Virus record (IMG/VR): IMGVR_UViG_3300037070_000273
Location: 1 to 21,876 of that record
Reading direction: 5' to 3' (one strand)
DNA length: 21,876 nucleotides
Origin: a virus
Shown: positions 1 through 21,876 of the stretch, piece after piece
How the letters are laid out: every line of letters begins with the position of its first letter
How positions within the stretch are numbered: position 1 is the first letter of the stretch
The notes under the pieces: model-generated
What the model saw: only the letters and a program-made list of their open reading frames with translations
Told to the model about the DNA's origin: nothing
The model's database searches: none
Program-made: the position numbers and the translations under genes

Positions 1-7
1 GACAATA

Positions 8-3174: not shown

Positions 3175-3204
3175 CTACTTGACTTAACGCTAAGGTAAAA
3201 GCAA

Positions 3205-4158: not shown

Positions 4159-4171
4159 GATTAACTTAATC
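4159..4171. repeat. 13-bp palindrome copy 3 (after capsid gene stop)
   Basis: GATTAACTTAATC begins right after the TAG stop at 4156-4158, placing an in-frame TAA at 4162. The central base is C, so the orientation is opposite to copy 2. Confidence 0.95.
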
Positions 4172-4189
4172 GAAGGAAGGAGAAAGCAA

Positions 4190-4621: not shown

Positions 4622-5294
4622 CGTCGCACCACAATACTACCCGCGTGGCATTAACACCTATGTTCCTGCCATGCAATACTCAGAAGAGGCAGTAACCGAA
4701 GGACTCGTTAGGGTCAACTTCGGCTCACCGCCAGTTGCGAGTGCTGCTGGTATCTTATCCGCAACGTCAATCGCGACAGCGGTAGATACGTCTACATTCG
4801 CAACAACCTACACCGAAACAAACATGGCCCCTTACGGGCGCACTATCAACATTGTTGCTTCGGGTGCAGCTACGTCCAACGTCAAAGTCTATGGCGAGGA
4901 CTATCTTGGTCAGCCTATGTGCGAGTCTTACACGCTTAACGGCACCACGCCTGTCGTGGGTAAGAAAGCCTTTAAGCGCGTCACTCGCGTCACCGCTGGT
5001 GTTACTGGCGGCACGACCATCAACGTTGGATGGGCAGACAAACTTGGACTCCCTTATGTGTCGGTTGCTGTGATCCGTGAGTTTGCCGATAACGTGCTGC
5101 AATCTGCTGGTACGTTTGTGGCGCCGATCTTCACGGACCCACAGACGCTAACCACAGGCGATCCAAGGGGAACCTACGATCCTACTGTTACGCTGGACGA
5201 TACTGCTGTGGTCGAGATTGACGTTCGCGTGAGCGACTTTGTCAACTCTTCTGGTCACGGTGGTTTGCAAGGCATCGCACACGTAGTCGCTTAA
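4614..5294 (+). CDS. probable capsid decoration or head protein
   Basis: Unrecognised 226-residue protein. It is rich in Thr, Val, Ala and Gly with alternating hydrophobic residues, as in all-beta virion proteins. The middle (about 75-160) with repeated TxNxxV- and GGTTINVGW-like strands could be a beta-sandwich. Such proteins beside the capsid gene are often decoration or head-surface proteins, so that is the best guess, not a firm call. GGAGG at 4603-4607, six bases before the ATG, is a strong ribosome site located inside the preceding gene. After its TAA stop (5292-5294) there are 22 bases before palindrome copy 4, one of only two junction copies not anchored to a stop codon. A long hairpin follows. 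Confidence 0.7.
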   Translation: MSNVAPQYYPRGINTYVPAMQYSEEAVTEGLVRVNFGSPPVASAAGILSATSIATAVDTSTFATTYTETNMAPYGRTINIVASGAATSNVKVYGEDYLGQPMCESYTLNGTTPVVGKKAFKRVTRVTAGVTGGTTINVGWADKLGLPYVSVAVIREFADNVLQSAGTFVAPIFTDPQTLTTGDPRGTYDPTVTLDDTAVVEIDVRVSDFVNSSGHGGLQGIAHVVA

Positions 5295-5303
5295 GGGGAC
5301 GGA

Positions 5304-5342
5304 GAGGCAGGAGTGTGATTAAGTTAATCATGCTCCTGCTTC
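5304..5342 (+). other. 39-base near-perfect hairpin centred on palindrome copy 4
   Basis: Pairing outward from base 5323 gives an almost continuous stem. The palindrome forms the top, then T-A, two G-U type pairs, then GGCAGGAG against CTCCTGCT and flanking pairs down to 5304/5342. No run of T follows, so it is not a classical intrinsic terminator. It sits at the head/tail gene boundary and could act as an RNA-processing or pausing site. Confidence 0.6.
5317..5329. repeat. 13-bp palindrome copy 4 (head/tail boundary)
   Basis: GATTAAGTTAATC, 22 bases after the upstream stop. An ATG follows at once (5330) but opens only a 20-codon frame ending at 5392, in a different frame from the gene starting at 5355. 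Confidence 0.95.
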
Positions 5343-5354
5343 CTCTGTATATTT

Positions 5355-6017
5355 ATGGCCACGTTCTCGGAAACGACCCAAGAGATTATTAAGTCTATTG
5401 GTGAGGTAGAGGGTACGTCTGTGCAGACGTATTCCGAACCCCGTGTTGAAGCTGCGCTTACGCAGATATTTGGCATGTGCTTTAGGAAATATTGGTGGCC
5501 TCAGTATATGACTTGGTCGCAGAGAACGCTTGATGGAACACTAGGAATCCTAACCGCAAACATCTCAGACATTAGAGAACTTAGAGACATAAGAACTATC
5601 ATTCCAGACGGTAGAGAAAAAGGCATACCTCAGCTACCATTTGGCAGAAACCCGTTCAATCTCACAGGTACAACGCCTCTCTATTACGAAAGTTTAGATA
5701 GCACTCACGCTAGCTTCGCCACTAGATTGCTTCAGTTTTGGCCTAAGTCTGCCACTGGCGACGTGTTCATTCACGCTCGCCTATTTCCTACGATCATTAA
5801 CTCGACCGAGTTGTATCTGGACCAGAAGATGCTAATAAATGGCTCCGCCTGGATCATCTTGGAAGACGAAGACATTAACCCTAATGCTGCCCAGCTTCGG
5901 AAGGATTTATTTGAAGAGAACTTCGCCGCAATCATGAAGGAGTATAGCGAACAACCAATAGAAAACTCAGGTGTGAATACAAACGAACGATTTATGTCTG
6001 AATGGTTCCTGACCTGA
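5355..6017 (+). CDS. probable tail adaptor (tail tubular protein A-like)
   Basis: At 220 residues, and lying between head genes and a large nozzle-like gene, it fits a head-tail adaptor of the T7 gp11 / P22 gp4 type, which binds the portal and carries the tail. The N-terminal helix (ETTQEIIKSIGEVEG) and the mid-protein aromatic stretch FRKYWWPQYMTW are seen; the later segment LFPTIINSTELYLDQKMLI is typical of adaptor cores. The family call is moderate. The ATG at 5355 is the first start after an in-frame TAA inside the palindrome at 5325. It has no Shine-Dalgarno sequence: the upstream bases are pyrimidine-rich and part of the hairpin. The TGA stop (6015-6017) abuts palindrome copy 5. Confidence 0.7.
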   Translation: MATFSETTQEIIKSIGEVEGTSVQTYSEPRVEAALTQIFGMCFRKYWWPQYMTWSQRTLDGTLGILTANISDIRELRDIRTIIPDGREKGIPQLPFGRNPFNLTGTTPLYYESLDSTHASFATRLLQFWPKSATGDVFIHARLFPTIINSTELYLDQKMLINGSAWIILEDEDINPNAAQLRKDLFEENFAAIMKEYSEQPIENSGVNTNERFMSEWFLT

Positions 6018-6030
6018 GATTAACTTAATC
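6018..6030. repeat. 13-bp palindrome copy 5 (complete stop-to-start spacer)
   Basis: GATTAACTTAATC fills the whole gap: TGA stop, 13-bp element, ATG of the next gene, with no other base. No Shine-Dalgarno sequence fits in this space. Confidence 0.97.
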
Positions 6031-7866
6031 ATGCTAAGCCCGTTCAACGTCATCAGTAATAAGCAAAGATCGCGTCGTGGACGTATCGTCACTAAGATAC
6101 GCTCTACGACTATTCGTGAGTTTGGTGGTGGCTGGAACGTGATCGACGCTCCGGCAGCGTTAAGCACCAAATACGCAAGTGTTCTCAAGAATTGGTTCCG
6201 TAAACAAGACGGAAGTCAAGCTATCAGATATGGCACCAAGTATATCGCTAATGTCTCTGCCATCGTATCTGGCAATATATTAGATATCAAGTATTTCAAC
6301 GGTCAGATCATTGTCGTTACTGTAGATGGCAAGATTGCTGCTGTAGACTCTGATGGTGTCGTGACACTCATTTGGGATAGTGCGATTGCAGCATTGCTTC
6401 CCGGTGCGCCGTCTGGTTGGTCTACGGACTTAGAAATTGTCACCTTTACTGAAATTAAAGGTAGCTTAGTCTTATGCAACGGTGTAGATAAGCCTCTGGA
6501 GATTCAGTCTAGCTTTGTCCCTCGCTATCTCCAAGACCTAGCTACCGGCTCAAACGTCAACACGCCTATTGGTAAATACTGCACGACTATATCTGACTAC
6601 TTAATTATTTCTGGCGTACCTAGCGAACCTAATGTGGTCTATATTGCTGCTCGTAGCACAGTCGGAGTATTTCCAGGTGACGATGCACCTAATGACTCTC
6701 TAGCATTTGACGTAGGTGCCTATGCACCAGAAGAAAACGAAACTATCCGTGGTATCTCTAGTTTCAGAAACTTTCTCTTTGTCCATTTCTTCTCTTCAAC
6801 TATCCAAGTTATCCTTGGCGAGTATAACACGGACGCCGATCATGTGCCGCGCGTAGGCGATACATTCGCCAAGTTTGGAGCAGTTGGCCACCGTGCTATC
6901 GTTCCTGTCATTAACGACCTAATCTTCAACGATATCGCTGGCGTGAACACGGTTAAGAGAAACATTATCTCTAGCGCCGTCGATCCAGATAGAATTAGTG
7001 CCCTAATTGCTCCAGAATATCAGAGACAAATTGCCACGGTCACTCAGGCCGATATGCTCACAAGTGTCTTTGCTGTCTATGACCGTCTAAATGGACACTA
7101 CATGCTCTTCATACCTTCCGAAGATGGTGTGAGGGCCTTTGTTTTTACCTTTAACGAGCGCATGAAAGTCAAAGCATGGAGTGAGTTTGTTGGTTGGGAT
7201 TGGATAGCGGCAACTTCAACTGCCCTAGGCCGCGTGTTCTTCGCTAGAGACACACGCCTATATCAGTACGGAAACGAGGCTTATTCTGCTGAAACCTACT
7301 CTGCTGACTTTATTGCTGAGTTTGACGGAAGCTGGGCAAACAATACAGCTTATGCTGTGGGCGATAGAATTAAAGACACAGTAAGTACGCAGGTATATAT
7401 CGCCCTAATTGCTCACACTAGCGCCCTAGCAGGTACGTTTGAAGACGATCGTGAAACTAATGAGACGTTTTGGGAAGAGTACGAAGGCGAGGATATTAAC
7501 TTCGATTGGGAGTTTCCTTGGACAGATGTTAACAGTAGAGCCAAACTTAAGCGTCTAGCTAATATCGGTTTCGACACTCAGGGCACAAGCCAGTTTAACG
7601 TGGACGTGTTTGTAGATAACATTTATCTCGATCAGTTCCAAGACTACGATCCTGCTCTAACCTTCGGCTTCACAGGCGGTGAGAGTCTTGGTTACGGTGG
7701 TGGCGATCAACCTTATGGTGGAGGAAGACGTACTTCTGACGAACGCTTATGGTCCCATCCTGTTAAGTTTAGGATCATGAAGCCAAGGCTCTATGGCTCA
7801 ACTAAAAAGCCACTTAGAGTTGTCTCTGCGATCTTCTTGTTCGCAGAAGGCAAATACGGAAGGTAA
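6031..7866 (+). CDS. tail nozzle / tail tubular protein B-like, with inserted sugar-binding-like module
   Basis: 611 residues, of the size and position of the tail nozzle or stabilisation proteins of podoviruses (T7 gp12 or P22 gp10 type), which form a beta-propeller-like hub closing the tail. Repeated beta stretches such as ILDIKYFNGQIIVVTVDGK and GISSFRNFLFVHFFSSTIQV are seen through residues 60-430, consistent with propeller blades. Residues 431-485 are a module with Trp, Tyr-x-x-Gly-Asp, His-Thr-Ser and a closing Asp-Arg-x-x-Asn-x-Thr-Phe-Trp that also occurs in the tailspike (8056) and the fibre (15619); it looks like a small carbohydrate-binding insert. A Gly-rich loop follows near 555. 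The start has no Shine-Dalgarno sequence because the palindrome occupies the upstream 13 bases. Reinitiation from the previous gene is plausible. Confidence 0.75.
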   Translation: MLSPFNVISNKQRSRRGRIVTKIRSTTIREFGGGWNVIDAPAALSTKYASVLKNWFRKQDGSQAIRYGTKYIANVSAIVSGNILDIKYFNGQIIVVTVDGKIAAVDSDGVVTLIWDSAIAALLPGAPSGWSTDLEIVTFTEIKGSLVLCNGVDKPLEIQSSFVPRYLQDLATGSNVNTPIGKYCTTISDYLIISGVPSEPNVVYIAARSTVGVFPGDDAPNDSLAFDVGAYAPEENETIRGISSFRNFLFVHFFSSTIQVILGEYNTDADHVPRVGDTFAKFGAVGHRAIVPVINDLIFNDIAGVNTVKRNIISSAVDPDRISALIAPEYQRQIATVTQADMLTSVFAVYDRLNGHYMLFIPSEDGVRAFVFTFNERMKVKAWSEFVGWDWIAATSTALGRVFFARDTRLYQYGNEAYSAETYSADFIAEFDGSWANNTAYAVGDRIKDTVSTQVYIALIAHTSALAGTFEDDRETNETFWEEYEGEDINFDWEFPWTDVNSRAKLKRLANIGFDTQGTSQFNVDVFVDNIYLDQFQDYDPALTFGFTGGESLGYGGGDQPYGGGRRTSDERLWSHPVKFRIMKPRLYGSTKKPLRVVSAIFLFAEGKYGR

Positions 7867-7872
7867 TTCCCT

Positions 7873-8031
7873 ATGCCACTAAAGAAGGGTAAGAGTAAGA
7901 AGACGATTAGTGATAACATTAGAGAATTGAGGCATAGTGGTCGTCCTCAAGATCAAGCTATTGCCATCGCTATGTCAGAAGCAGGAATGAGCAAGAAGAA
8001 AAAGAAGAAAGGGAAGAGCAAGCTCGATTAA
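7873..8031 (+). CDS. small basic virion-region protein (52 aa)
   Basis: A 52-residue protein starting [10 protein letters not shown], with a helical middle ([20 protein letters not shown]) and a C-terminal lysine run. Small proteins of this pattern, with SGRPQ-x-QAIAIA-x-x-x-AG, recur among podovirus-like tail genes; their role is not known to me. The basic ends could bind DNA or a polyanionic surface. GGAAGG at 7858-7863, nine bases upstream, serves as the ribosome site, within the end of the nozzle gene. The stop TAA (8029-8031) lies inside palindrome copy 6, so the protein's final Asp codon and stop are both provided by the element. Confidence 0.85.
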
Positions 8032-8038
8032 CTTAATC
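8026..8038. repeat. 13-bp palindrome copy 6 (supplies stop codon)
   Basis: GATTAACTTAATC, whose GAT TAA are the last codon and stop of the 52-residue protein. It is followed by a small GC hairpin (GTGCG-GAG-CGCAC, 8039-8051). Confidence 0.97.
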
Positions 8039-8051
8039 GTGCGGAGCGCAC
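8039..8051 (+). promoter_or_regulatory. small hairpin presenting the tailspike ribosome site
   Basis: GTGCG and CGCAC form a five-pair stem with loop GAG. The Shine-Dalgarno GGAG (8043-8046) lies across the stem top and loop, nine bases before the ATG at 8056, so folding could limit tailspike translation. The pairing is seen; the regulation is inferred. Confidence 0.4.
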
Positions 8052-8055
8052 TATC

Positions 8056-10488
8056 ATGCCTGATCCAACACCAAATCTCGGTCTAGCCCGACCTAACTTC
8101 AATGTCGTCACTTGGCACGACGAGGTTAATGGTAACTTCACGATCCTCGACGCCGCGGTCGCAGGGTTGGTGAACATCTCTGGCGTATGGGACAACAATC
8201 TCAGTTACATAGTCGGAGACTTCGTTGTTGATGCAACGGACTCCTCGATTTGGGAGTGCCTCGTCAGTCACACAAGTGCCGCTATTGGCATTATGGCGGC
8301 AGATAGAGCCGCAAATCCTACTTACTGGCAACTGTCTTCTGACATTGCGACACTTGTAGGAGACGCAGCGGACTCTGCCGAGGAAGCTGCCAATAGTGCT
8401 GCTGCTGCTGCTGCGTCTGCTGCTGCTGCCGCCGCTAGTGCCGGGACAGGACAAGGACGCTATATTGACATTCGTAGCTTTGGTGATGTAGAGCCAGATG
8501 GGGACATTACCGCACCATTGCAGGCAGCTATTGACTATGTGGCGAGCATCACCGATGGCGGCGCTCCGTCTATCCTGATCCCAAACACTCTCCCGACTAC
8601 CGATGGAGCAAATGGTTCATATACTTTGGGCAACATTGTTTTTCCAGAGGCAAACATTGACATTTTGATTGCAATGGGTGGGTTCGCCATCTTCCTCGAT
8701 GATGGTGTTAGCTTAGAGCTGAATCATGGAAACTCAATTCGTGGGGTAGCTTGGCATAGAACATCACCACAAGGACCAGTTCCGTATGCTGCAATTATTG
8801 GTTCCGCCACATCAAACCCGGTTATCAGGCTTAACAACGGCACCAATGTCCTAGAAAACCTTAAGATAGTGCCCGATGTGGGTTGTATCGGGATTCATCT
8901 CGATGGCACTACTGTTCCTACTGCTCTTATCCACATTAAGCATTGTAGTAGTTTTGGCGCTACTGGCGATCCAACCTCCATACCGTTCGTGGCCGAGAAT
9001 GTGTTTTGGGTCTGGATGGACGATTGTGTCTTTGGCTCCAACGCCACCTACCCTGTTCAGTTCAGGACCACCATAGACGTTTTCCAAACGATGGGCCTTG
9101 TCCAGTGCCGCAACTTGCACCTTGAGAACAACGGGGTTCTTATCAAGTCGCAGTATTCTGACTGTGACAATATGCAGTTCTACGACACACAGTCGGAGAA
9201 CTTCACTGGTGGAGCGATGTTCAACTTCGATACCAGTGCTGGAGACGCCGAAGGTAACGGCATCAGCAACATTGACATTATCAGGCCACAGATTTTCGAC
9301 AGTGGCGATCCGGTCATTAAAGCCATTGGGCTTGGTGTAAGCGGCATAACGGTTAGGGAAACAGCCGCGGACCACGATGTTATGGATGAGACTTCTGACC
9401 GAATTAACGGTCTGTCGGTTCACTACAATTCTGTTGGGGGTGAGTTTGGGCGCCCCCCCGCAGTCCCGAGCTACATACCAGCGATCAAGACAGAGTTCTT
9501 TAACGCTCTAGACACCCAACTTATCTCTGCACCTAGAGCGCCGCAATGGGTCCCGTTCACACCGCTGCCGATTGAACAAGACCCGACTCTTTGGGACGAC
9601 GATGTGGATGCGGTTGTCACCGGGGGTGTTCAAGCGCCCGATGGTTCACTGATGGCAGGGGCCGTTACCGGGATAGATGGCGATGTTTACTTGTATAACG
9701 AGGAACACACTGTCAATGTAGGCGATTGGGTTGTTGTCGGCATCTGGATGCAGGGGACTACTGACGACCCACCAACACCCACGATCTTAACTTTGCGCGA
9801 TTGGACTATTGATGATGCTGGAGCAGAGATTAACGGTATTCCCATCGATGATGAAACATTCAACTCCGGGTTCATTCCTGTTACGGACGGCAGCCATGAC
9901 CGCATAACCGATGGTGGCTGGAAGTGGACTTGGGCAGCTCGCAAGCTCACGGCTATTGGCACTGGAGACTTGAACATAATTTGGCGTATCTCACCCGCAG
10001 GAGACTTTGCTAATCCAAGTAACTATTTCAACCCGTGCGCGTTCTTAATCCCCGCTAGTGCAGGATGGTCAGACGGCGACATTCTTGCTACACTCAGGTC
10101 GTTCAAAGGTGGCTGGCCCAATACTGTGGTCCCAGGTGAGGTAGCTCTACTCGATCACCAATCACTAAAGGTTGGAGGGGTTAGGTATCCACCTAACGAG
10201 CGTAATGTGACTGCGGCAGGTGCCGTAACGGTAGATGCTGTTTCTGACGATACCATCTTTATCAACAAGACCGTGGGTGCTGCAACCACGGTTAATCTCC
10301 CTGCTGCCGCGACAAGAAGTGGAGCTATTAAGATCGTGGACGGCAAACTTGATGCCGCGACTAACAATATAACAATCACACCTAACGGTGCTGAGACAAT
10401 CATGGGCTTATCGACCTACGTTATTCGGTTCAACGGTGGCTCAGTGTCCTTATCCCCGAGGCCCGACGGAGCAGGGTGGTACGTTTAA
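8056..10488 (+). CDS. tailspike / receptor-binding protein
   Basis: 810 residues. Residues 6-38 (NLGLARPNFNV, then WHDEVNGNF) form a virion-anchoring domain that also begins the fibre at 15619. Residues 41-95 are the shared Trp/His-Thr-Ser/Trp module, likely a small sugar-binding fold. An alanine-rich linker (about 113-131) precedes YIDIRSFGDVEPDGDITAPL at 136, the usual opening of a right-handed parallel beta-helix as in pectate-lyase-like tailspikes; repeating strands with Asn/Asp ladders continue to about 450. A beta-rich middle follows, then a C-terminal domain (about 716-810) of a type common at phage fibre ends. Polysaccharide-cleaving activity is possible, but I cannot assign catalytic residues. 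GGAG lies nine bases upstream. The TAA overlaps the next ATG by one base. A seven-C run is present at 9453-9459. Confidence 0.8.
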   Translation: MPDPTPNLGLARPNFNVVTWHDEVNGNFTILDAAVAGLVNISGVWDNNLSYIVGDFVVDATDSSIWECLVSHTSAAIGIMAADRAANPTYWQLSSDIATLVGDAADSAEEAANSAAAAAASAAAAAASAGTGQGRYIDIRSFGDVEPDGDITAPLQAAIDYVASITDGGAPSILIPNTLPTTDGANGSYTLGNIVFPEANIDILIAMGGFAIFLDDGVSLELNHGNSIRGVAWHRTSPQGPVPYAAIIGSATSNPVIRLNNGTNVLENLKIVPDVGCIGIHLDGTTVPTALIHIKHCSSFGATGDPTSIPFVAENVFWVWMDDCVFGSNATYPVQFRTTIDVFQTMGLVQCRNLHLENNGVLIKSQYSDCDNMQFYDTQSENFTGGAMFNFDTSAGDAEGNGISNIDIIRPQIFDSGDPVIKAIGLGVSGITVRETAADHDVMDETSDRINGLSVHYNSVGGEFGRPPAVPSYIPAIKTEFFNALDTQLISAPRAPQWVPFTPLPIEQDPTLWDDDVDAVVTGGVQAPDGSLMAGAVTGIDGDVYLYNEEHTVNVGDWVVVGIWMQGTTDDPPTPTILTLRDWTIDDAGAEINGIPIDDETFNSGFIPVTDGSHDRITDGGWKWTWAARKLTAIGTGDLNIIWRISPAGDFANPSNYFNPCAFLIPASAGWSDGDILATLRSFKGGWPNTVVPGEVALLDHQSLKVGGVRYPPNERNVTAAGAVTVDAVSDDTIFINKTVGAATTVNLPAAATRSGAIKIVDGKLDAATNNITITPNGAETIMGLSTYVIRFNGGSVSLSPRPDGAGWYV
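8398..8436 (+). repeat. GCT-type alanine codon repeat in tailspike linker
   Basis: Five GCT, then GCG TCT, three GCT, two GCC and a GCT encode an Ala-rich flexible or helical linker between the N-terminal modules and the beta-helix. Copy-number slippage would change linker length in frame. Confidence 0.85.
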
Positions 10489-13400
10489 TGAACAAGATTA
10501 AGTTAATCATAGCTCTTGCTCTTGCGCTTCTTATTGCTCCTGCCTACGCGCAGCAAAATATTGGGCTTATCCCAACTGATAGTTTGCTTGGGCGTGACTC
10601 TCCTGGCACTGGACAGATCGAAGTCATCACACTTGGGGCGAATTTATCCCTCAACGGTTCTGGCGTCTTATCAGCCACGGGTGGTGGTGGAGGTATTACT
10701 TCCTCTGGTACTCCGGTTGACAACCAGATAGCTATTTGGACAAGCGCCACCAACCTCGAAGGTGATACTGGTTTTACGTTTAACACGACTAACGATGACT
10801 TGATTATCGCAGCTTCTGGCAACTTGCTCTTCGGAGCGGTGACGATATTAGACGATAATGCTGGCACTATGACGCTCGATAACATCGACACTCTTGGCGC
10901 CACGACTGAGACTACTGTAGAAGCTGCGATTGATACGCTCGCCAATTTGACGAGCATACAAGCTCGCACCGTCACGCTCGCAGATGCGGGCGCAAATGCC
11001 ATCTTCGGTTGGGACGATGGTGCGAGCGCCTATGAAAACCTGACCAAGGCTGAAGCCCAAACGATCCTGGGCCTACAAACTTCCACTACTGACAACCAGA
11101 TTGTGCGCTATGACAGCACGGCTGGAAATCAGCAAGGCTCCGCGCTCGTCATTGCCGACACTACTGGCTCAATCTCTGGTGCTACCTCAGGTTTCTCGAT
11201 TGAGTTCTTCGGGGCGACGGGAACCGACACGACCCTTACTTCTCCATCAGCCGGGAACTTAAACATTGAAGGTAATGCTATCTGGCGCACAGGTGGTTCC
11301 GCCTTGGCGTCGATGGCTAATCTTGGCACGTTGCTTAGTGATGAAGCCGCTGGTTGGATAACATTCGGCACTACGCCAAGCATGGCGAACCTCGGCACGT
11401 TACTCACGGACGATGCCTCTGGCTGGATCACGTTTGGAACGACCCCTACAAGTGCAAACCTGAGAAGTTTACTCACGGACGAAATAGGAACAGGCGTGCT
11501 TGTGTTTCTCGGTACACCTGCCGATGACCAAGTGTCTGTTGGCGATAGTGCTTCTGCTGTAACATGGAGGACCATCCCTGACTCCGATGCCGCCACACAA
11601 AAACTCCAATACGACCAAGCAACAAACACGTTCTCGGCTGGCACGGACGACGACGTGCCTGATTCGGGTGATTATACTAATCTTACTGGCGGTACTGGTA
11701 TCACTAACACCGCTGGTACTCTCTCTGTTGATGGGACGGAACTAGCCACAGTTACATGGGGCGCTGGCGCGACACTTACTTGGACATTCGACGCTGGCAC
11801 TAACGATACTGTGCTTACGGTCGCTTCTAGCTCGATCACTTGGGCAGTAACGGCAGCGACGTTTAACTTAGACGACGAGATGGAGCTTCGCTTCTTTGAG
11901 GAAGATGCTGGAGGCGCCAATTATATTGGATTCAAAGCTCCTGCTGCTGTCACAGCTAACGTCACTTGTACGTTTGAAAACGACTCAAATCCAATACCTG
12001 ACTCGTGCGTTGGAAATGGTGTAGATGATGGTGGCGCTGGCTCCGTTTCTATATCAGGCACTCCGGCTGATAATCAGGTTGCTGTATGGACAAGCACAAC
12101 TGCAATCGAGGGTGACACTGCTTTCACGTTCGACACAACTACAGATGCGCTAAGTATTGGGACAAGTGGCGTCTTCACTGCCGGAACGATTGAACTAGGC
12201 GCGGCGACAGATACAACCATTGCGCGCTCTGGTGCTGGCACTCTTACCGTAGAGAGTGTGGGTATTGTACGTGGCGCGACTGGTGGCACCGACAACTCAA
12301 TCCTGCGTGCTGATGGTACAGGTGGAACGCTGTTGCAGAATAGCGTGCTTGTCATAGCCGATACCACTGGTTCAATCTCGGGTGCAGCTTCGGGATTCAG
12401 CATTGAATTCTTTGGTGCAAGTGGCACGGATACTACACTAACCTCGCCATCCGCAGGTAATTTGAACATTGAAGGAAATGCCATCTATCGCGCTGGCGGT
12501 ACTGACGTTGCTGTGGCTGATGGTGGTACAGGTGCGAGTACGCTGACTGACTTAATCACACTAACTACCATGACCTCGGGCGTTTATGTGGCGCAAGTGG
12601 CTGATGGTACAGGTATTGACGGTACGGCTAACGCAGAAGGTGCGACATACACTCCAACACTAGATTTGACTGAGATAAGCACTGCCACGTTCGGTGCAGG
12701 AGCGTTTACCACACTTATCTTTGATGCCGGTGCAACTGATCCCACGTTTACCTTCGCATCTAACTCCACAACTGTGAGCAATAGTGCTACGTTTAGTCTC
12801 GGTACGAGCGCCGCATTTACCACAGGCACGATTGAGTTAGGCGCAGCTACGGACACGACCATTGCTAGAACAGGCGCAGGAGCAATAAGCGTTGAAGGTA
12901 GTGCGGTACAACTAGCATCCACGGTCGATGTTGTGCAGGTTGCTGACGGAACCGGCATAGACGGAACTTGTAGCACGGCTTCTTGCACATACACTCCTAC
13001 ACTTGATCTAACAGAACAGAACACTCAGACGTTTGGCTCGGGCACTTTCACCACTGCCACGTTTGACGCTGGCGCTGTTGATCCAGTGTTGACGTTTGGC
13101 TCAGGCACGTTGTTAATTGAGGCAGTTGTGAGCTTCCGCCAAGCTGATGCGGCTAACGCTGGAGGTTCGATTAAGTTACTCGAAGATCCAGGGACAGGAT
13201 CGAATTTCATCGCGTTCCTCGCTCCTGCGAGCATCACTTCTGATGTTACTTGTACGTTAGAGAACGACTCTAATCCTATCCCTGATAGTTGTGTTGGCGA
13301 TGGTACAGACGGTGGAGGCGCTGGCTCACAAACGCCTTGGACGAGCAACATTGACGCCGATGGGTTTAATTTGCTCTTTGATGACGCCACTGGAATCAAA

Positions 13401-14507
13401 TCGGCCGAGGCCGGCAATCCGTCGCTGTTGCTGTTCACAAGCGCAGCGAGTGCGGTTAATTATTTCACCATTCAGAACTCTGCAACCGGCGTTGACCTTG
13501 GCTTCCTCGCGACAGGTAGCGATACCGACATTGACATTGACATAACCCCGAAAGGTGCGGGGGTTGTTCAGGTAACGGGGACGAACAAGCTAATAACCAC
13601 CATCAACACAAATGACGAGGCTTTTGCTGAATCTATTACGATGCTTGCTCCTAACCTAACGGCGAGTAACCGCATTTGTAACATCCTTGGACGTAATAGT
13701 GCATCGGGGAACTGGAACAATCTTTGCTTCCTATACAATGGAAATGACGACAACACGAACGCCTTCGACATTGCTTTTAACTCTAAGCCATCAAGGTTTA
13801 GGGTGTTTAATGGTGGTGGTATTGCCATTGGAGAACTCACCTCTCCTGGAGATGGCAATATCGCCCTCGGGTCCACTGGTACTATTGAGTTTGACAATAG
13901 TACGGCAACTTCTCTTACTGATGCCGGGGCGGGAGAACTCACCATTGAAGGCAAGAGGATAAAACACGCTGGACGGCAAACCGTCTCACTACTTGCGGCT
14001 TCTGGTATATCGAGTGGCACGGCAACGCCTACTGGTTGCACGCCAGTAGGTAATGTTGATAGTGGCTCGAATGACATTATCACAAGGCAATGTCAGTTCT
14101 CTGCTGGCACTGATAACTCGATGTATTGGACGATCGTTCCGCCAAAGGGCACTGATGAAAGTGTTGATCTTGCTGCCCGTGTTGACTGGACAAGCACCAC
14201 AGGTACAGATGCGACCGATAATGTGATCTGGACTATGGCATGTGTGGCGTTCAGCAATGATGACTCAATGAACGGCAACGCCTTTCCTTCTCCTGATACT
14301 GTCACTGACACACAAACTGCTGCTGGCGACTTCCTATCAAGTGGAGAAATCACTGGCATCACACCCGCTGGTACATGGACTGAGGGCGATGCGTTAGTAT
14401 GTCGTGTCACGAGAGACGCTGATGCTGCTGGTGACAACTTCAACGGCACGGCGGATTTGATAAATGTGCAACTTTACTTTACCGACAGTGGTAGCACTGA
14501 TGATTAA
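10488..14507 (+). CDS. giant repeat-rich fibre-like protein with Sec signal peptide
   Basis: 1339 residues. The ATG at 10488 overlaps the tailspike stop (TAATG); an in-frame GTG at 10476 is possible, but the later start yields a classic signal peptide: MNKIK, hydrophobic LIIALALALLIAP, cleavage AYA|QQ after residue 21. The body is rich in Thr, Gly, Ala and Asp and built from interspersed beta repeats. Pairs include GTP-x-DNQ-x-A-x-WTS (from 74 and 524), ADTTGSISGA (222-270 and 623-671), ENDSNPIPDSCVG (from about 470 and 897) and QVADGTGIDGT (from 701 and 815). Such ladders suggest an elongated trimeric fibre or adhesin. No endosialidase-type autochaperone end is evident. Palindrome copy 7 lies within codons 3-7 and encodes part of the signal peptide. 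An exported phage fibre is unusual: it may be displayed on the infected cell, or the leader may serve another role. Confidence 0.8.
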   Translation: MNKIKLIIALALALLIAPAYAQQNIGLIPTDSLLGRDSPGTGQIEVITLGANLSLNGSGVLSATGGGGGITSSGTPVDNQIAIWTSATNLEGDTGFTFNTTNDDLIIAASGNLLFGAVTILDDNAGTMTLDNIDTLGATTETTVEAAIDTLANLTSIQARTVTLADAGANAIFGWDDGASAYENLTKAEAQTILGLQTSTTDNQIVRYDSTAGNQQGSALVIADTTGSISGATSGFSIEFFGATGTDTTLTSPSAGNLNIEGNAIWRTGGSALASMANLGTLLSDEAAGWITFGTTPSMANLGTLLTDDASGWITFGTTPTSANLRSLLTDEIGTGVLVFLGTPADDQVSVGDSASAVTWRTIPDSDAATQKLQYDQATNTFSAGTDDDVPDSGDYTNLTGGTGITNTAGTLSVDGTELATVTWGAGATLTWTFDAGTNDTVLTVASSSITWAVTAATFNLDDEMELRFFEEDAGGANYIGFKAPAAVTANVTCTFENDSNPIPDSCVGNGVDDGGAGSVSISGTPADNQVAVWTSTTAIEGDTAFTFDTTTDALSIGTSGVFTAGTIELGAATDTTIARSGAGTLTVESVGIVRGATGGTDNSILRADGTGGTLLQNSVLVIADTTGSISGAASGFSIEFFGASGTDTTLTSPSAGNLNIEGNAIYRAGGTDVAVADGGTGASTLTDLITLTTMTSGVYVAQVADGTGIDGTANAEGATYTPTLDLTEISTATFGAGAFTTLIFDAGATDPTFTFASNSTTVSNSATFSLGTSAAFTTGTIELGAATDTTIARTGAGAISVEGSAVQLASTVDVVQVADGTGIDGTCSTASCTYTPTLDLTEQNTQTFGSGTFTTATFDAGAVDPVLTFGSGTLLIEAVVSFRQADAANAGGSIKLLEDPGTGSNFIAFLAPASITSDVTCTLENDSNPIPDSCVGDGTDGGGAGSQTPWTSNIDADGFNLLFDDATGIKSAEAGNPSLLLFTSAASAVNYFTIQNSATGVDLGFLATGSDTDIDIDITPKGAGVVQVTGTNKLITTINTNDEAFAESITMLAPNLTASNRICNILGRNSASGNWNNLCFLYNGNDDNTNAFDIAFNSKPSRFRVFNGGGIAIGELTSPGDGNIALGSTGTIEFDNSTATSLTDAGAGELTIEGKRIKHAGRQTVSLLAASGISSGTATPTGCTPVGNVDSGSNDIITRQCQFSAGTDNSMYWTIVPPKGTDESVDLAARVDWTSTTGTDATDNVIWTMACVAFSNDDSMNGNAFPSPDTVTDTQTAAGDFLSSGEITGITPAGTWTEGDALVCRVTRDADAAGDNFNGTADLINVQLYFTDSGSTDD
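10496..10508. repeat. 13-bp palindrome copy 7 (in signal-peptide codons)
   Basis: GATTAAGTTAATC overlaps codons 3-7 of the 1339-residue gene, read as Ile-Lys-Leu-Ile inside the signal peptide. It starts eight bases after the tailspike stop. Confidence 0.95.
11151..11297 (+). repeat. fibre repeat A, copy 1 (49 codons)
   Basis: Encodes residues 222-270, paired with 12354-12500. Comparing the two by eye, 45 of 49 residues are identical, while 29 codons differ synonymously and only 4 change the residue. Confidence 0.9.
11895..12044 (+). repeat. fibre repeat B, copy 1
   Basis: Encodes the module ending in ENDSNPIPDSCVG and a Gly-rich stretch. Its partner is at about 13176-13328. Each copy holds two cysteines (TCT-x-END and DSCVG) at matching positions. 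Confidence 0.8.
12354..12500 (+). repeat. fibre repeat A, copy 2 (49 codons)
   Basis: Encodes residues 623-671. It is protein-level near-identical to 11151-11297 but heavily diverged at third codon positions. Confidence 0.9.
12588..12756 (+). repeat. fibre repeat C, copy 1
   Basis: Encodes a QVADGTGIDGT ... YTPTLDLTE ... FDAG module (from residue 701). Its partner begins at 12930. Confidence 0.8.
12930..13100 (+). repeat. fibre repeat C, copy 2
   Basis: Second QVADGTGIDGT ... YTPTLDLTE ... FDAG module (from residue 815), following closely on the first and carrying an inserted cysteine pair (TCSTASC). Confidence 0.8.
13169..13181. repeat. degenerate palindrome, one mismatch (fibre gene)
   Basis: GATTAAGTTACTC, one change at position 11, within codons for Ile-Lys-Leu-Leu. 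Confidence 0.35.
13176..13328 (+). repeat. fibre repeat B, copy 2
   Basis: Second copy of the ENDSNPIPDSCVG module, with conserved cysteines and a following GGGAGS-like linker. Confidence 0.8.
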
Positions 14508-15282
14508 GTTAATCCTAGCTATCTTCTTCTCCCTAACCTTAAGCATCTCATCGTGCTTGGCTGGGTATCTTGGTGGAATGTCAGCTGGATGGAACACGGC
14601 ACGTGGCCAAACTGTGATATGGCGCGCTACATGTGCTTCTGACATTAGCAATCTAACTACCTACACCTTTAGCGTCTCGCCCACTGGCTTGTCAGATGAC
14701 CAAGAGGTTTTGGTTGCAGTCGTTTTTCTTGGTGAAGATTCCGCAACCGATTTTGGTGTCAACTCTGCCACCATTGATGGGGTCGCTGCTCTTGAGGCAG
14801 CCGATGAGAATGGCTCAGGTATGCTTGTTAGTTCCTCTGTGTATTTCTTAAATGCATCACCCCGGAGCGGTATGGCAACTTTTGATATTACCGCAACTTG
14901 GTCAGAACCAATCACAGGAGCCGTGGCTTGTGCATGGGCTTACTACCCAATGCAAACCGATCACGGAGGGGAGACGTGGGCCGCTTCAATATCGGACAAT
15001 GATACCGCATCTGCTGCTTTAACTTTGACCTTAAGTCCCAATGTAAACTCCGTAACACCTGGTGCGTACATGGTAGCTGCTTGTGCTACCACTGGTATTG
15101 TTGACTCAACGACTTGGGCAGTTGCTACTGAGCGGGAAGATACACAAAACGCAGAATTTGATTACTCTAGTGCTGATGCAGCCATGACGACAAGTCCAGC
15201 GAATATTACTTGTGACTGGACCGGGACTCAAGATGCCGCTGGATCAGCAATAGCACTCAATCCAAACTGGTGGCAGGACTAA
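14500..15282 (+). CDS. candidate exported lipoprotein, beta-sandwich-like
   Basis: 260 residues from the ATG at 14500, which overlaps the previous gene by eight bases; an earlier ATG at 14464 would add 12 residues. The N-terminus MIKLILAIFFSLTLSISSC is a signal sequence ending in Ile-Ser-Ser-Cys, a match to the lipobox, so lipidation at Cys19 is likely; a plain cleavage after Leu-Ala just beyond is the alternative. Leu after the Cys would favour outer-membrane sorting in a Gram-negative host. The mature part is Thr/Ala/Ser-rich with alternating strands (ATIDGVAALEAADENGSG; TPGAYMVAACATTG), as in small beta-sandwich modules associated with phage fibres. Candidate roles are surface display, masking of receptors or superinfection exclusion, by analogy with the lipoprotein Llp of phage T5, although no homology is claimed. 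Codons 2-5 are encoded by palindrome copy 8. No clear Shine-Dalgarno sequence; coupling to the upstream stop is likely. Confidence 0.7.
   Translation: MIKLILAIFFSLTLSISSCLAGYLGGMSAGWNTARGQTVIWRATCASDISNLTTYTFSVSPTGLSDDQEVLVAVVFLGEDSATDFGVNSATIDGVAALEAADENGSGMLVSSSVYFLNASPRSGMATFDITATWSEPITGAVACAWAYYPMQTDHGGETWAASISDNDTASAALTLTLSPNVNSVTPGAYMVAACATTGIVDSTTWAVATEREDTQNAEFDYSSADAAMTTSPANITCDWTGTQDAAGSAIALNPNWWQD
14502..14514. repeat. 13-bp palindrome copy 8 (stop of one gene, start of next)
   Basis: GATTAAGTTAATC supplies the Asp codon and TAA stop (14505-14507) of the 1339-residue gene. In another frame it supplies the last base of the ATG and codons 2-5 (Ile-Lys-Leu-Ile) of the lipoprotein. 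Confidence 0.97.
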
Positions 15283-15605: not shown

Positions 15606-15618
15606 GATTAAGTTAATC
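15606..15618. repeat. 13-bp palindrome copy 9 (complete stop-to-start spacer)
   Basis: GATTAAGTTAATC is the whole gap between TAG (15603-15605) and ATG (15619), the same layout as copy 5 but with the opposite central base. Confidence 0.97.
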
Positions 15619-16953
15619 ATGGTCGAGTTCACCGCCAAATATGGATTATACAAACCAGACTTCAACGTGTCTGGTTGGCATCAGCAGGTTAATGGAAACT
15701 TCGACTCCATTGACTCCTTGCTGTTTGCTGTGCTTGGCTTGGGCAACTTCGTGGGTGAATGGACTAACTCAACTAACTACACAGAACAGCAACGTGTTTT
15801 TGATCCTGACGACGGAACGATCTGGAACTGCTTAGTCGATCATACTAGCGCCGCTACAGACTCTTTCTCAGACGACCGTGCGGACAATCCAACCTTCTGG
15901 AACTCGGTTAGTAGTGTTCCGATTGCGCGTGGTGCTTGGCAAAACGACACGCTATATGGCGCAGGAGATATAAGTTACGATGCCGGTGAGAGCTTGGTTG
16001 GTATTGCCGACACGACTCACACAAGTTCGAGTAGTCCGAACACAATGCGGGATGACGCGGCGAACTGGACCTTCATTGCTGACTTGTCTCTCGCTGCCGT
16101 ACTGGTCAACTCGGTCAACGCTCAGACTGGCACTGTGGTACTGGACGCGGACGATATAGCAGAGACGGCAACACGCAAATGGGCTGGCGCTACTGACGCA
16201 GCGGACCTAGATGCCGTCATGGCCGCGATAGCAGGTTACACAACTATCGTCACTAGGAGCATTGACTCAATGCTTCCTCCCACGGGCATGATGATGCCGT
16301 GGCCCTCCAGCACCGATCCAACACAAGTGAACGGAAACGGAACAACACCTTCTTGGTTAGTCTGTGACGGTGGGACGATTGGAGATGTGAGTTCGGGCGC
16401 CACCGAACGCGCCAACGCAGATATGCAAGCCTTGTTCTCCTTCCTGTGGACTAACTCAGCGAACGCAGAATTACACATTCAAACTTCTGCTGGCGCTCCT
16501 ACGACCAGGGGAGCTAGTGCCGCCGCTGACTTCGGCGCAAACAAACGTATGCCCATACCAGACTGTAGAGGGGGCACGATTTACTTTGGTGATAATGGCG
16601 CGGGCAGAATTACAGCTACGGGGCACTCAACTAACTTTGATCAACTTGGTGCTGAGTCGGTACTCATTGAGCAAGAGAACTTACCGGACATAACCTTCCC
16701 TAACGATCTGAGTGGTGAGCTGGATAGTGCTGCAATTAACAACGGTACTCAAGTTGCGAGAAATCCAAGTACGAATAACAATGCACAATCTGGTGGTGGC
16801 TCGAATATCGTCAACGCTGTTTCCACAGTCACCTTAACCGTCAATGATACTTCGGTTACTATTAGTGGTGATGTTGAGTCTGGTGGTGGAGATATACCAC
16901 TGACGACCCTAAGTCCAGGTACAGTGATAAAGAACATGGTGATAAAGACATGA
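15619..16953 (+). CDS. tail fibre with collar-type C-terminal domain
   Basis: 444 residues. Residues 8-40 (KYGLYKPDFNV, then WHQQVNGNF) are paralogous to the tailspike N-terminus, so both probably dock on the same tail site. Two copies of the Trp/His-Thr-Ser module follow at 44-98 and 103-157; the second is diverged. A short coiled or linker region leads to a tail-collar-like domain from about 218 (MLPPTGMMMPWPSS, then SWLVCDGGTIGD, then RMPIPDCRGG near 311), which in other phages trimerises at fibre tips and binds receptors. The C-terminus is Asn/Ser/Gly-rich beta structure. There is no Shine-Dalgarno sequence, since the palindrome directly abuts the ATG. The stop overlaps the lysin start (ATGA). 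It may be an alternative or additional receptor-binding protein to the tailspike. Confidence 0.8.
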   Translation: MVEFTAKYGLYKPDFNVSGWHQQVNGNFDSIDSLLFAVLGLGNFVGEWTNSTNYTEQQRVFDPDDGTIWNCLVDHTSAATDSFSDDRADNPTFWNSVSSVPIARGAWQNDTLYGAGDISYDAGESLVGIADTTHTSSSSPNTMRDDAANWTFIADLSLAAVLVNSVNAQTGTVVLDADDIAETATRKWAGATDAADLDAVMAAIAGYTTIVTRSIDSMLPPTGMMMPWPSSTDPTQVNGNGTTPSWLVCDGGTIGDVSSGATERANADMQALFSFLWTNSANAELHIQTSAGAPTTRGASAAADFGANKRMPIPDCRGGTIYFGDNGAGRITATGHSTNFDQLGAESVLIEQENLPDITFPNDLSGELDSAAINNGTQVARNPSTNNNAQSGGGSNIVNAVSTVTLTVNDTSVTISGDVESGGGDIPLTTLSPGTVIKNMVIKT

Positions 16954-17369
16954 CAGAACCAAAGTGGCTGACACTCGCAAGGAAAGAACTAGGGACAATA
17001 GAGATTCCTGGGCCAAGAAGCAATCCAAAAGTAGTGCAATACTATTTAGACGTAACAGGAAAGAAGTTTGGTGATGCTGTGCCTTGGTGCGCCGCCTTCG
17101 TAGGGGCAATGCTTGTAAGAGCAGGAGTGAGAAGCTCTGGTAGTCTTATGGCACGGAGCTATAGCAAGTATGGAAGTAAATGTGCTCCACAATCAGGGGC
17201 TATAGCTGTATGGCCAAGAGGCAGAAGTCCTGTCTTTGGTCATGTTAACTTTGTGGAGAGTGTGTCTGGAAACTATGTAATTTGTATCGGTGGCAACCAA
17301 GGCGATGCTGTGACAAGGCAGAAATATGATAAGCGTAAAGCCGTAACTTTTCGCTGGCCCCCTGATTAA
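16950..17369 (+). CDS. peptidoglycan peptidase (CHAP/NlpC-P60-like endolysin, TIGR02594 type)
   Basis: 139 residues. Cys47 in PWCAAFVGAML, His98 in FGHVNFV and Asn116 in CIGGNQG form the expected Cys-His-Asn set of CHAP-like cysteine peptidases of the TIGR02594 type, which cut peptide bonds in the cell wall. There is no signal peptide and no separate wall-binding domain; it is a single compact domain. The start overlaps the fibre stop by four bases (ATGA), so translation is coupled. Release would need a holin, and none is recognisable nearby; alternatively it is a virion component used at entry, as its place between fibre and ejection genes allows. The TAA stop (17367-17369) lies inside palindrome copy 10. 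Confidence 0.85.
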   Translation: MTEPKWLTLARKELGTIEIPGPRSNPKVVQYYLDVTGKKFGDAVPWCAAFVGAMLVRAGVRSSGSLMARSYSKYGSKCAPQSGAIAVWPRGRSPVFGHVNFVESVSGNYVICIGGNQGDAVTRQKYDKRKAVTFRWPPD

Positions 17370-17376
17370 CTTAATC
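17364..17376. repeat. 13-bp palindrome copy 10 (lysin stop; abuts promoter)
   Basis: GATTAACTTAATC provides the final Asp codon and TAA of the lysin. The next base begins TTGACA, the -35 of a consensus promoter. Confidence 0.97.
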
Positions 17377-17405
17377 TTGACAAAGAGAGGATAGAGAGCT
17401 ATAAT
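17377..17405 (+). promoter_or_regulatory. perfect-consensus sigma70 promoter abutting palindrome copy 10
   Basis: TTGACA (17377-17382), exactly 17 bases, TATAAT (17400-17405): no mismatch in either hexamer. The -10 overlaps the ATG at 17404, so RNA would start near 17412, inside the GNAT-like gene. It would then serve mainly the genes from 17850 on, while the GNAT gene depends on read-through or an internal start. The palindrome touching the -35 looks like an operator. Confidence 0.7.
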
Positions 17406-17850
17406 GTCAGAAGTATCACCCGCAATAGCGGCGAGCAATTTGAAGGTGCGCCGCTATGTCCAATCCGACATAGGTAAGATTTTATCCTTGGCGCACGAAG
17501 CGTGTGAGCGCGAAGGCGTGCCATTTAGTATGGCGCGTCTAAAGTTCGTTCTCGACAACAACTTGAGAAATCTGCTTCTCTGCGTGAACGTGCTAATTGA
17601 TCTGACTGAGGTTGTGGGTGTGATAATTGCACAAATGAATAAGAACATTCTCAATGACGACACGATAGCTGAGGATAGTTTTTTCTATCTCTCTCGGGAC
17701 TACCAAGATTATGTTAATCTTATGTACGGAGAATATGTAGATTGGGCAAAGCAGAGAGGGTGTAGAGAGGTTAGAGAATCTGACCACTTTATGCCTGGCG
17801 CTATTTCATCACCGCGTACTCAGTTTAAGGTTTGGAAGGAGGCAATCTAA
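17404..17850 (+). CDS. GNAT-like N-acetyltransferase fold protein
   Basis: 148 residues. The opening LKVRRYVQSDIGKILSLAHE (residues 13-32) is the typical first strand and helix of GNAT proteins, and the strand LTEVVGVIIAQM near 67-78 fits the central sheet. The usual acetyl-CoA pyrophosphate-binding loop (Q/R-x-x-G-x-G/A) is not obvious, so catalytic activity is doubtful. GNAT-like proteins occur in podovirus structural regions (T7 gp13 is one noted case), usually with an unknown or virion role. The purine-rich AGAGAG at 17393-17398 may serve as ribosome site, inside the promoter spacer. Its stop overlaps the next ATG (TAATG). A one-mismatch palindrome lies at 17707-17719. Confidence 0.65.
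   Translation: MSEVSPAIAASNLKVRRYVQSDIGKILSLAHEACEREGVPFSMARLKFVLDNNLRNLLLCVNVLIDLTEVVGVIIAQMNKNILNDDTIAEDSFFYLSRDYQDYVNLMYGEYVDWAKQRGCREVRESDHFMPGAISSPRTQFKVWKEAI
17707..17719. repeat. degenerate palindrome, one mismatch (GNAT gene)
   Basis: GATTATGTTAATC differs at position 6 only. In this reading frame the exact element would read GAT TAA and end the protein; the A-to-T change gives GAT TAT. Confidence 0.5.
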
Positions 17851-18773: not shown

Positions 18774-18786
18774 GATTAACTTAATC
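18774..18786. repeat. 13-bp palindrome copy 11 (after ejection gene stop)
   Basis: GATTAACTTAATC directly follows TAG at 18771-18773, again with in-frame GAT TAA. Fourteen bases then separate it from the next ATG. Confidence 0.97.
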
Positions 18787-19821: not shown

Positions 19822-20340
19822 ATGGACATTCAGTCGTTGATTCAGATGCTTACACAAGGCGGTATGCCACAGAGGCCGCAGGGAACAGGTATGAGTATGC
19901 CTCCACAAGGCGGGATGGACCCAAGTATGAGCGGAGGCGGCGCATTTACTCCCCCTCCTATGAGTGAAAGTCCTATTACGAGTGCGCTAGCTCGTCCTGT
20001 AGGCCCCGACATTATGAGCTTAATTAGGATGCTCACACAAGGTGGAGCAGGGGGCGGCGTTCCTCTTCCTCCGCTTGACCAAGGTGCTATGATAGCAGGA
20101 CTTGGTGGGGCCGGTGCGCCTCCCATAGCTAACGCGCTTACCGAAGCTCCTACTCCTGCAAGGCCCGCACCGCCTAAACCACAACCGAGAACACGGCCAA
20201 AGAAGGTGAGAAGTGAACGCGAGGATGAATCTCGAGCTGGCAAGATGGGCATTAAGACTCAAAGAGGTAATAGCAAGAACAAGCCTCCTAAAGGTCGCTC
20301 GTCATACGAAGAGAGATTTGCCAGCAGCATGAAAGATTAA
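19822..20340 (+). CDS. Gly/Pro-rich small virion-region protein with internal repeat
   Basis: 172 residues, unrecognised. A short amphipathic motif is present twice: SLIQMLTQGG near residues 5-14 and SLIRMLTQGG near 65-74, each followed by a Gly/Pro/Met-rich disordered stretch. The last third is strongly basic (RPKKVRSEREDESRAGK, then KNKPPKGRSS). This layout suggests a flexible linker or DNA-binding protein packaged with the ejection proteins; inference only. GGAAGG at 19806-19811, ten bases upstream, is the ribosome site. The stop TAA (20338-20340) lies inside palindrome copy 12. Confidence 0.7.
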   Translation: MDIQSLIQMLTQGGMPQRPQGTGMSMPPQGGMDPSMSGGGAFTPPPMSESPITSALARPVGPDIMSLIRMLTQGGAGGGVPLPPLDQGAMIAGLGGAGAPPIANALTEAPTPARPAPPKPQPRTRPKKVRSEREDESRAGKMGIKTQRGNSKNKPPKGRSSYEERFASSMKD

Positions 20341-20347
20341 CTTAATC
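20335..20347. repeat. 13-bp palindrome copy 12 (stop of one gene, abuts next ATG)
   Basis: GATTAACTTAATC gives the last Asp and TAA of the 172-residue gene and ends at the base before ATG 20348. The junction therefore has neither extra spacer nor Shine-Dalgarno sequence. Confidence 0.97.
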
Positions 20348-21876
20348 ATGTTTGTAATCTTACCGGAAGACCCACCACCTATAGAAGATTGGGAGGCTTT
20401 CCAGGCTTGGGTAAGGCGACAAGCGCAGCCTAAGCCTGTAGAGGATATGTTTGCGGAACCGAGAATAACTCCCACGGTTCCTCCGCCTCCTGTTGAACCT
20501 GCACTGCCACCGTTAAGTCAGGAAGAGATAACTTCTGGCCGCGCATTTAAGGTGCCAGAGAAAGAGGATGAAAGTATCCTCGATCCTGTTACTCGCGTGC
20601 TTGGCGAGATGAAGAAGCGCGCTGCGGAGGAATTTCGTCCAGACGAGCCTCTAGGTCCACCAGAAGAAGAAGTGCAGAGAATACAGGGGCTTGGGCCATT
20701 GACTCCTAGCGTCCAAGATGTGGCTCGTGGCTTCGGTCGCGCTGCTGACTTTGCTACGCGCTCTCTAATGGGTGGTATAGCTGGCGCTTCTGGTGGGTTC
20801 GAGCAAGGTTTAATTGAAGCTGGAACTAGTCCCACAACGGCAGGGCAACTGACAAGGGACCTGAACTTAGAGGTATTGCGTCGTCAAGGAGGTATTACGC
20901 ATGGCGCACCAAGAGCCAAGCCTATTGAAGCAGCGAAGCATATCTTTACTAAAGAGATAGAGCCAGTCGTTAGAAAGCCTGAGATAACTAAGTGGGTTGA
21001 AGAGAATCCTAGAGCAGAATTTGTAGAAGAACCTCCGATTAAGTTAATCCCAGAAGCTCAGCTTAATTCTATTGGTACGCTAGAGAGAAGAAAGGTCATC
21101 AACCGTCAAGGCACCGTTCATACTAAGGTCAACGAGACATTCAAAGTAGGCGACGAAGAACTGCTAGTGCAATATAGTGTCTCTAAGGCTAGATCGGGTG
21201 GTGATCGAGCAGAGATTGACTTCACAGTTTATACACCACCTAAAGAAGGTGAAAGTTTACTATCTAGGAGACGTGAATCTGGTGCACCAGCACCAACAGT
21301 GAAGCAGGGGAGAGATACTTTATTCACTGTGGCTAGTAGTGTGGAAAAGTTCATCGAGAAAACCAAGCCTGAGAGTGTAGCGTTCCTTGCGGCAGACGAT
21401 AGACTAATTCCTACATACGAAGCTTTTGCTCACTCACTAGCCAGAAAGTACGACGGCCAAGTTGTCACCCTGCCAACAGATACAGGCGTGGCTACGGTTG
21501 AGTTTCCTAGGAATAGAGGAAATCTATTCGACCCAAATGTGCTTGGCTCTGGCTTTGGTGATTTCTCTGCTATCATGGGTGGTGCGTATGTTGCTGCTGG
21601 TAGCGCGCCATATCTTATTCGCGCAGGTGTTAATGCTGCGAAGAAAGCGTGGCCCAAGATGGGTATACGAACGGGTACAATTTTGGACCCAACTGAGACT
21701 CTTGGACCAAAAGTGTTGATGAACTTTGACCGTCCAAAGGATTTAATGAAGACGATTACTTCAAGTCCTGTCTCAGGTATGCTTAGTTTGCTTAAAGGTC
21801 TAGGTTATAATAAGAAGGCTATGTTTGATGCTTTTGAGAGTAACACGCTGGCAAGCGAAGGCCAGAAGATTGCCAT
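20348..21876 (+). CDS. large virion protein, 3' end beyond window
   Basis: The frame is open from ATG 20348 to the window edge, at least 509 residues. The start is Pro-rich and acidic (LPEDPPPIEDWEAFQAW, then PTVPPPPVEPALPPL) to about residue 60 and looks disordered. A Gly/Ala-rich helical patch follows near 135-155. At about 255-395 is a compact domain with a KVGDEELLVQYSVSK strand, then TLFTVASSVEKFIEKTKPES leading to VAFLAADD and a helix with AFAHSLARKYDG; I have seen similar phrases in large phage proteins, but cannot name the family. From about 415 a hydrophobic GGAYVAAGSAPYLI segment may contact membrane. This is probably the large internal virion (ejection) protein. There is no Shine-Dalgarno sequence, since palindrome copy 12 abuts the ATG. 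Copy 13 lies inside the gene. Confidence 0.75.
   Translation, partial: MFVILPEDPPPIEDWEAFQAWVRRQAQPKPVEDMFAEPRITPTVPPPPVEPALPPLSQEEITSGRAFKVPEKEDESILDPVTRVLGEMKKRAAEEFRPDEPLGPPEEEVQRIQGLGPLTPSVQDVARGFGRAADFATRSLMGGIAGASGGFEQGLIEAGTSPTTAGQLTRDLNLEVLRRQGGITHGAPRAKPIEAAKHIFTKEIEPVVRKPEITKWVEENPRAEFVEEPPIKLIPEAQLNSIGTLERRKVINRQGTVHTKVNETFKVGDEELLVQYSVSKARSGGDRAEIDFTVYTPPKEGESLLSRRRESGAPAPTVKQGRDTLFTVASSVEKFIEKTKPESVAFLAADDRLIPTYEAFAHSLARKYDGQVVTLPTDTGVATVEFPRNRGNLFDPNVLGSGFGDFSAIMGGAYVAAGSAPYLIRAGVNAAKKAWPKMGIRTGTILDPTETLGPKVLMNFDRPKDLMKTITSSPVSGMLSLLKGLGYNKKAMFDAFESNTLASEGQKIA
21037..21049. repeat. 13-bp palindrome copy 13 (inside the last CDS)
   Basis: GATTAAGTTAATC, read in the stop-free frame as Ile-Lys-Leu-Ile between prolines. 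No promoter-like hexamers follow. Confidence 0.95.

Follow-up and report, generated by a model that had tools for sequence, protein, structure and literature searches.

A palindrome abutting a consensus sigma70 promoter is probably one site of a lineage-specific, genome-wide array in a clade of podophages

The DNA analysed here (the window), a viral record 21,876 bp long, is a linear fragment with genes for a P22-like portal, a major head protein, a CHAP endolysin and a GNAT-like protein, and the question it raises is what a perfect palindrome is doing immediately upstream of a perfect sigma70 promoter between the last two of these genes. The palindrome, GATTAACTTAATC, occupies positions 17364–17376 and is odd-centred, with no strand assigned, running from G (17364) through ATTAA, a central C and TTAATC to its last base (17376); its first half, GAT TAA, doubles as the end of the upstream CHAP endolysin ORF (16950–17369), for which it supplies the stop codon. 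It is adjoined with no gap by a −35 hexamer on the plus strand, TTGACA (17377–17382), a 17-nt spacer (17383–17399; AAAGAGAGGATAGAGAG, which is Shine-Dalgarno-like) and a −10 hexamer on the same strand, TATAAT (17400–17405), from which an RNA start is predicted near 17412. Checking the sequence bore out the contiguous arrangement given in a preliminary description of this DNA, as well as the rarity which that description attributed to a zero-mismatch promoter: TTGACA-N15–19-TATAAT has a single match in the whole window and none in 100 dinucleotide-preserving shuffles.

The −10 hexamer does overlap ATG 17404, from which the GNAT-like ORF was called (17404–17850, plus strand; PHROG 1249, E 1.4e-8). 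In an N-terminal alignment, GNAT homologues from three relatives (G004, G006 and G009) begin M-I-RRY and align with residue V15 of the window protein, encoded by GTG 17446, and thus the overlap is probably a start-codon error, the GNAT gene starting at GTG 17446. If so, the overlap disappears and the gene would have a 34-nt leader, so that a promoter tentatively assigned before to the downstream ejection block could drive both GNAT and the genes that follow it. In searches of viral contigs, neither GNAT nor the virion protein encoded next had a relative, and the junction at 17364 is therefore not directly comparable with others.

The palindrome is not confined to this promoter. An exact search of the 21.9-kb window for GATTAA[C/G]TTAATC returned 13 copies where fewer than one is expected, and allowing up to two mismatches gave 20 matches against 0.66 expected. 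Copies, all unstranded, lie directly after stop codons, supply the stop themselves (GAT-TAA) or are translated as IKLI. Three of the twelve further exact copies are found around the capsid gene: inside the scaffold ORF (2663–2675, adjoining the −35 hexamer of another sigma70-like promoter), at the scaffold/capsid junction (3162–3174) and right after the capsid stop (4159–4171). Others fall between a stop codon and the ATG at 6031 (6018–6030) or 15619 (15606–15618), directly 3′ of a stop codon (18774–18786), or at a position where the copy supplies the stop codon and is followed by ATG 20348 (20335–20347). The copy at 14502–14514 combines the stop codon of one ORF with IKLI of the next, those at 10496–10508 and 21037–21049 also translate as IKLI, the former at a signal-peptide-like start and the latter inside an ORF, and the same search located copies at 5317–5329 and 8026–8038. 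Of the exact copies, 85% are no more than 40 nt from the end of a gene, compared with 9% of random positions. We rejected this bias as a functional signal, since the window motif has TAA in two of three frames on either strand and the stop codons contained in GATTAA and CTTTAA motifs probably explain much of it as tolerance. We also noted that two large ORFs in this region (8056–10488, 810 aa; 10476–14507, 1343 aa) possibly encode tail or surface proteins, the longer having internal repeats (D3, D5 and D9) and the signal-peptide-like start beside a palindrome.

Comparisons were made with nine relatives whose capsid proteins are 61–85% identical, and then with a wider set. The window palindrome has no copy in the nine capsid relatives, which carry arrays of other sequences: GATAAnnnTTATC in L002 (8 in 9.8 kb), CTTTAAnTTAAAG in L003/L004 and CTACA or TTACA types in the remainder, while the wider set adds the classes GTGTGAnTCACAC, TTACAAnnnTTGTAA and TACAGnnnCTGTA. 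Across the relatives the classes, which also include GATAAAnTTTATC and CTACARnnnYTGTAG, are all perfect palindromes, and near-complete genomes of 43–48 kb carry 32–60 sites each against a shuffled mean of at most 0.45. The same places are occupied by different sequences. Right after the capsid stop there are six versions, namely GATTAACTTAATC in the window, GATAATGTTTATC in L002, aaCTTTAACTTAAAG in L003/L004, tctGTGTGAGTCACAC in L027, CTACAGGAGCTGTA in L040 and gcaTTACAAGGGTTGTAA in L051, and at the scaffold/capsid junction a site of differing sequence is present in the window phage, L002, L003, L026, L027 and L029. In the capsid tree all carriers fall on one side of a branch with support of 100/100, and the window phage, L002 and L003, with three different palindromes, group together (support 81/86). 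Concerted change of so many sites is what would be expected of co-evolution with a trans-acting binder, and would not be expected of drift or mobile repeats.

A pattern scan for the window palindrome identified one further array, with 14 copies in the 13.5 kb of contig L131 (IMGVR_UViG_3300037071_001084, 1–13478), which encodes the replication half of a related phage. This early-gene contig belongs to a phage of the same specificity and may supply the missing half of the genome in a very close relative. No such array was found in distant relatives from the phage collection (Mx8, BUCT555, ppBjS10J-1 and ctMlz233), and a search of bacterial genomes with the capsid protein returned nothing, giving no host or prophage evidence. 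G045 (L118–L120) and L092 show a weak even-centred repeat, TTATACGTATAA, which may be an independent array.

Sites are spaced more evenly than random placement would give (coefficient of variation 0.48–0.74 versus approximately 0.96; window 0.89), with P at or below 0.0044 in seven of ten contigs and approximately 0.04–0.06 in the window, G003 and G012. This evenness extends to the CTACA classes, in which most sites are inside genes, and the role of the array therefore seems tied to genome coverage and not to individual promoters. The sequence GANTC is the methylation target of CcrM in alphaproteobacteria. It is contained in the GTGTGAnTCACAC class (G011 and G012; L106–L108 and L115–L117) and in no other, and CcrM methylation was accordingly rejected as the role of the array.

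What, then, of the promoter? On the sense strand of the window, just two sequences match sigma70 at 10/12 or better; they lie at 2676 and 17377, each beginning with the base that follows a palindrome. The first, TTGACT-N17-TATAAA (2676–2704, plus strand), lies inside the scaffold ORF, 530 bp before the capsid ATG. With starts predicted at 2711 and 17412, each palindrome would be centred at −42; at sigma70 promoters with class II activator sites, such as those of CRP, the regulator site is centred near −41.5. From position counts, the chance of both promoters falling at that offset is approximately (13/21876)^2 = 3.5e-7 before the choice of offset is considered, and below 1e-4 allowing for some 100 offsets. 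At the place equivalent to 2676, relatives L002, L003/L004, L025/L026, L028 and L029 have TTGACA-N17-TA(T/C)A(A/G)(A/C) 494–583 bp before the capsid ATG, and several relatives that lack a palindrome have 9–11/12 sigma70 matches 489–576 bp before it. This conservation is suggestive only, since coding constraint (LTRA..QRGI) contributes to it; the synonymous codons CAACGTGGTATA are identical at the promoter in the window phage, L002 and G003. A conserved sigma70-like promoter within the scaffold gene probably drives the capsid gene, and its conservation makes host-type promoters plausible in the late region of the window. The occurrence of the promoter in relatives without the palindrome indicates that the promoter is the older element and that only in the window phage does a palindrome adjoin it, and for that reason we discarded 2676 as independent proof of coupling between palindrome and promoter. 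Among the relatives, strong promoters near sites showed no clear enrichment and no fixed offset (G003, one versus 0.6 expected; G012, none versus 0.8), and G006 has five versus 2.2 expected within 101 offsets, with the offsets scattered.

From the comparison of these sequences, we consider it probable that the copy at 17364 belongs to an array extending over the whole genome, and that the sites are recognised by a DNA-binding protein which the phage itself encodes and which is probably dimeric. As the symmetry of the sites suggests, the protein would bind each palindrome as a dimer, and the array would span the genome at about one site per 0.7–1.5 kb, wherever coding sequence tolerates it. Each lineage of the podophage clade would have switched its recognition sequence at all sites together, in the way that co-evolution of a binding protein with its sites would predict. 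With some 30–60 sites occupied in each genome, the protein could impede or halt RNA polymerase, or else give structure to the DNA; the most likely action genome-wide would be that of a transcription obstacle or insulator, in the manner of mycobacteriophage stoperators, where the bound protein stops RNA polymerase during elongation, or of a sequence-specific nucleoid-like protein. At 17377 and at the conserved capsid promoter at 2676, the bound protein would also touch or block RNA polymerase should these promoters fire; at such consensus hexamers it could equally repress or be neutral.

The alternative that fares best would separate the array from transcription altogether, making it a phage-specific nucleoid, a means of self-marking or an aid to packaging, with the promoter next to 17364 arising incidentally where TATAATG follows a purine-rich ribosome-binding region. 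Such a reading would suit the even spacing, the mostly intragenic sites of several classes, the want of clear promoter coupling in the relatives and the Shine-Dalgarno-like spacer. Against it, both strong sense promoters of the window adjoin a site at the same offset and the one at 2676 is conserved, and we give this alternative a minor but real chance of being right.

The preliminary description proposed that a dimer on the palindrome would contact RNA polymerase at the −35 in the class II manner, that is, that 17364 is a dedicated activator or repressor site for the ejection-block promoter. The geometry on which this was based is sound and is seen twice, the centre lying at approximately −42 and the palindrome adjoining the −35 of a perfect promoter at 17377 and that of a near-consensus one at 2676. 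Promoter specificity did not hold up, however: the palindrome recurs twelve more times, mostly without a promoter, 11 of the 13 window sites having no such sigma70 promoter, and the relatives swap in other sequences genome-wide. Moreover, unlike a typical class II arrangement, the −35 and −10 here are at or near consensus, so that an activator would not be needed, and the palindrome is a genome-wide repeat. A dedicated site is thus improbable.

We regard it as very doubtful that the palindromes act in RNA, as transcript hairpins for processing, stability or termination. Some classes do fold weakly to moderately (−1.0 to −6.0 kcal/mol), and the sites of G003 (L011–L013) are polar with respect to transcription, with C at the centre in 27 of 32 and AA on the 5′ side in 28 of 32 (sense strand, AACTTTAACTTAAAG). 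Such polarity was seen in G003 only, and the centre base gave no sense preference in the window, G011 or G012; for the site of the window itself the folding energy is only −1 kcal/mol, and no U-run follows the sites. Boundary sequences kept for recombination between phages are hardly credible, for although sites do lie at gene junctions in the window, L002 and G003, their sequences differ among close relatives, which would prevent exchange, and many sites of other classes are intragenic.

A search of open papers found no description of arrays like these, and two known systems offer the closest comparison for the array proposed here. Cluster A mycobacteriophages such as L5 and TipsytheTRex carry more than 20 stoperators, 13-bp sites distributed over the genome, many of them in short intergenic spaces; these are asymmetric, oriented with transcription and bound by a monomeric HTH repressor, and related phages differ in the recognition sequence and, with it, in the binding protein (PMC9283540, PMC6550527). 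The likeness lies in the many sites of approximately 13 bp genome-wide, here 13 in 21.9 kb and 32–60 per near-complete relative, whereas the sites described here are palindromes at even spacing, often lie inside genes and for the most part seem unoriented. Stoperators go with an HTH immunity repressor and a temperate lifestyle; the carriers showed no integrase and no general HTH_3 repressor, the window itself being a fragment, and no prophage was found. Stoperators are the nearest working analogy, but membership of that class fails on the symmetry of the sites, which for the most part also seem unoriented, and on the lack of an HTH immunity repressor or integrase in the carriers. The second system, the SPBRE of SPbeta, is a 15-bp repeated intergenic element bound by one phage protein, MrpR, a tyrosine-recombinase-like repressor, at about ten promoter-linked sites of a temperate phage (PMC10516654). 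It resembles the present case in being a repeated element of one phage genome with a single phage protein as binder (here a candidate), but near-complete genomes here have 32–60 sites, the candidate is unrelated, and PF00589 (tyrosine recombinase) had no match in the carriers. In contrast to the promoter-region sites of SPBRE, only two of the 13 window sites are so placed, and the relatives are without clear enrichment.

Our best, although unproven, candidate for the palindrome binder is an uncharacterised protein family of approximately 310–350 aa, whose gene lies between those for terminase and those for replication. It is present in all eight near-complete carriers (G003, G004, G006, G009, G011, G012, G024 and G033) and in the partial contig G008, and L131 holds its C-terminus (E 1e-12); the window fragment contains no copy of its own. 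Of the two non-carriers examined in full, neither G029 nor G045, with its weak repeat only, encodes it. The family is highly divergent, G003 and G012 members being 20% and 13% identical, respectively, to that of G006 over the alignment, unlike the capsid proteins of G003 and G006, which are 61% identical; homology was supported by hhalign (E 7e-6). In the comparative screen three other small families and two structural ones shared its presence pattern. Since the presence of candidate and arrays has a single evolutionary origin, their co-occurrence is confounded by it and is kept as a lead only. No convincing relative of the family was found in Pfam, PHROG, PDB or by Foldseek, and one member had no match in the phage collection, for a scan of which the family alignment was unusable because it has no conserved stretch. 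AlphaFold modelling improved from a pLDDT of 62 to 77.8 with nine sequences; no DNA-binding fold was recognised in the model, and neither PDB nor viral models yielded a significant Foldseek match. Directly before the palindrome 3′ of the candidate gene, L131 (355–402) and G003 (28590–28627; L012) have a hairpin and T-run resembling a rho-independent terminator.

The promoter is a secondary point in all this, one of two late promoters where the array would touch RNA polymerase. The replacement of some 30–60 sites per genome wholesale between phages with 61–85% identical capsids would be an extreme case of co-evolution of a protein with its DNA sites, and the natural series of at least six specificities would help in learning how recognition sequences switch. 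More tentatively, these phages may define a new class of phage DNA recognition, in which lytic-looking podophages organise, silence or mark their own DNA through an uncharacterised protein family that recognises a palindrome peculiar to each lineage, present throughout the genome about once per kb. The recognition sequence would have been switched wholesale time and again, perhaps through exclusion between competing phages. If the protein is confirmed, it would be a genome-wide regulator or nucleoid-like protein without known relative, and the question of why lytic-looking phages label their own DNA would become testable.
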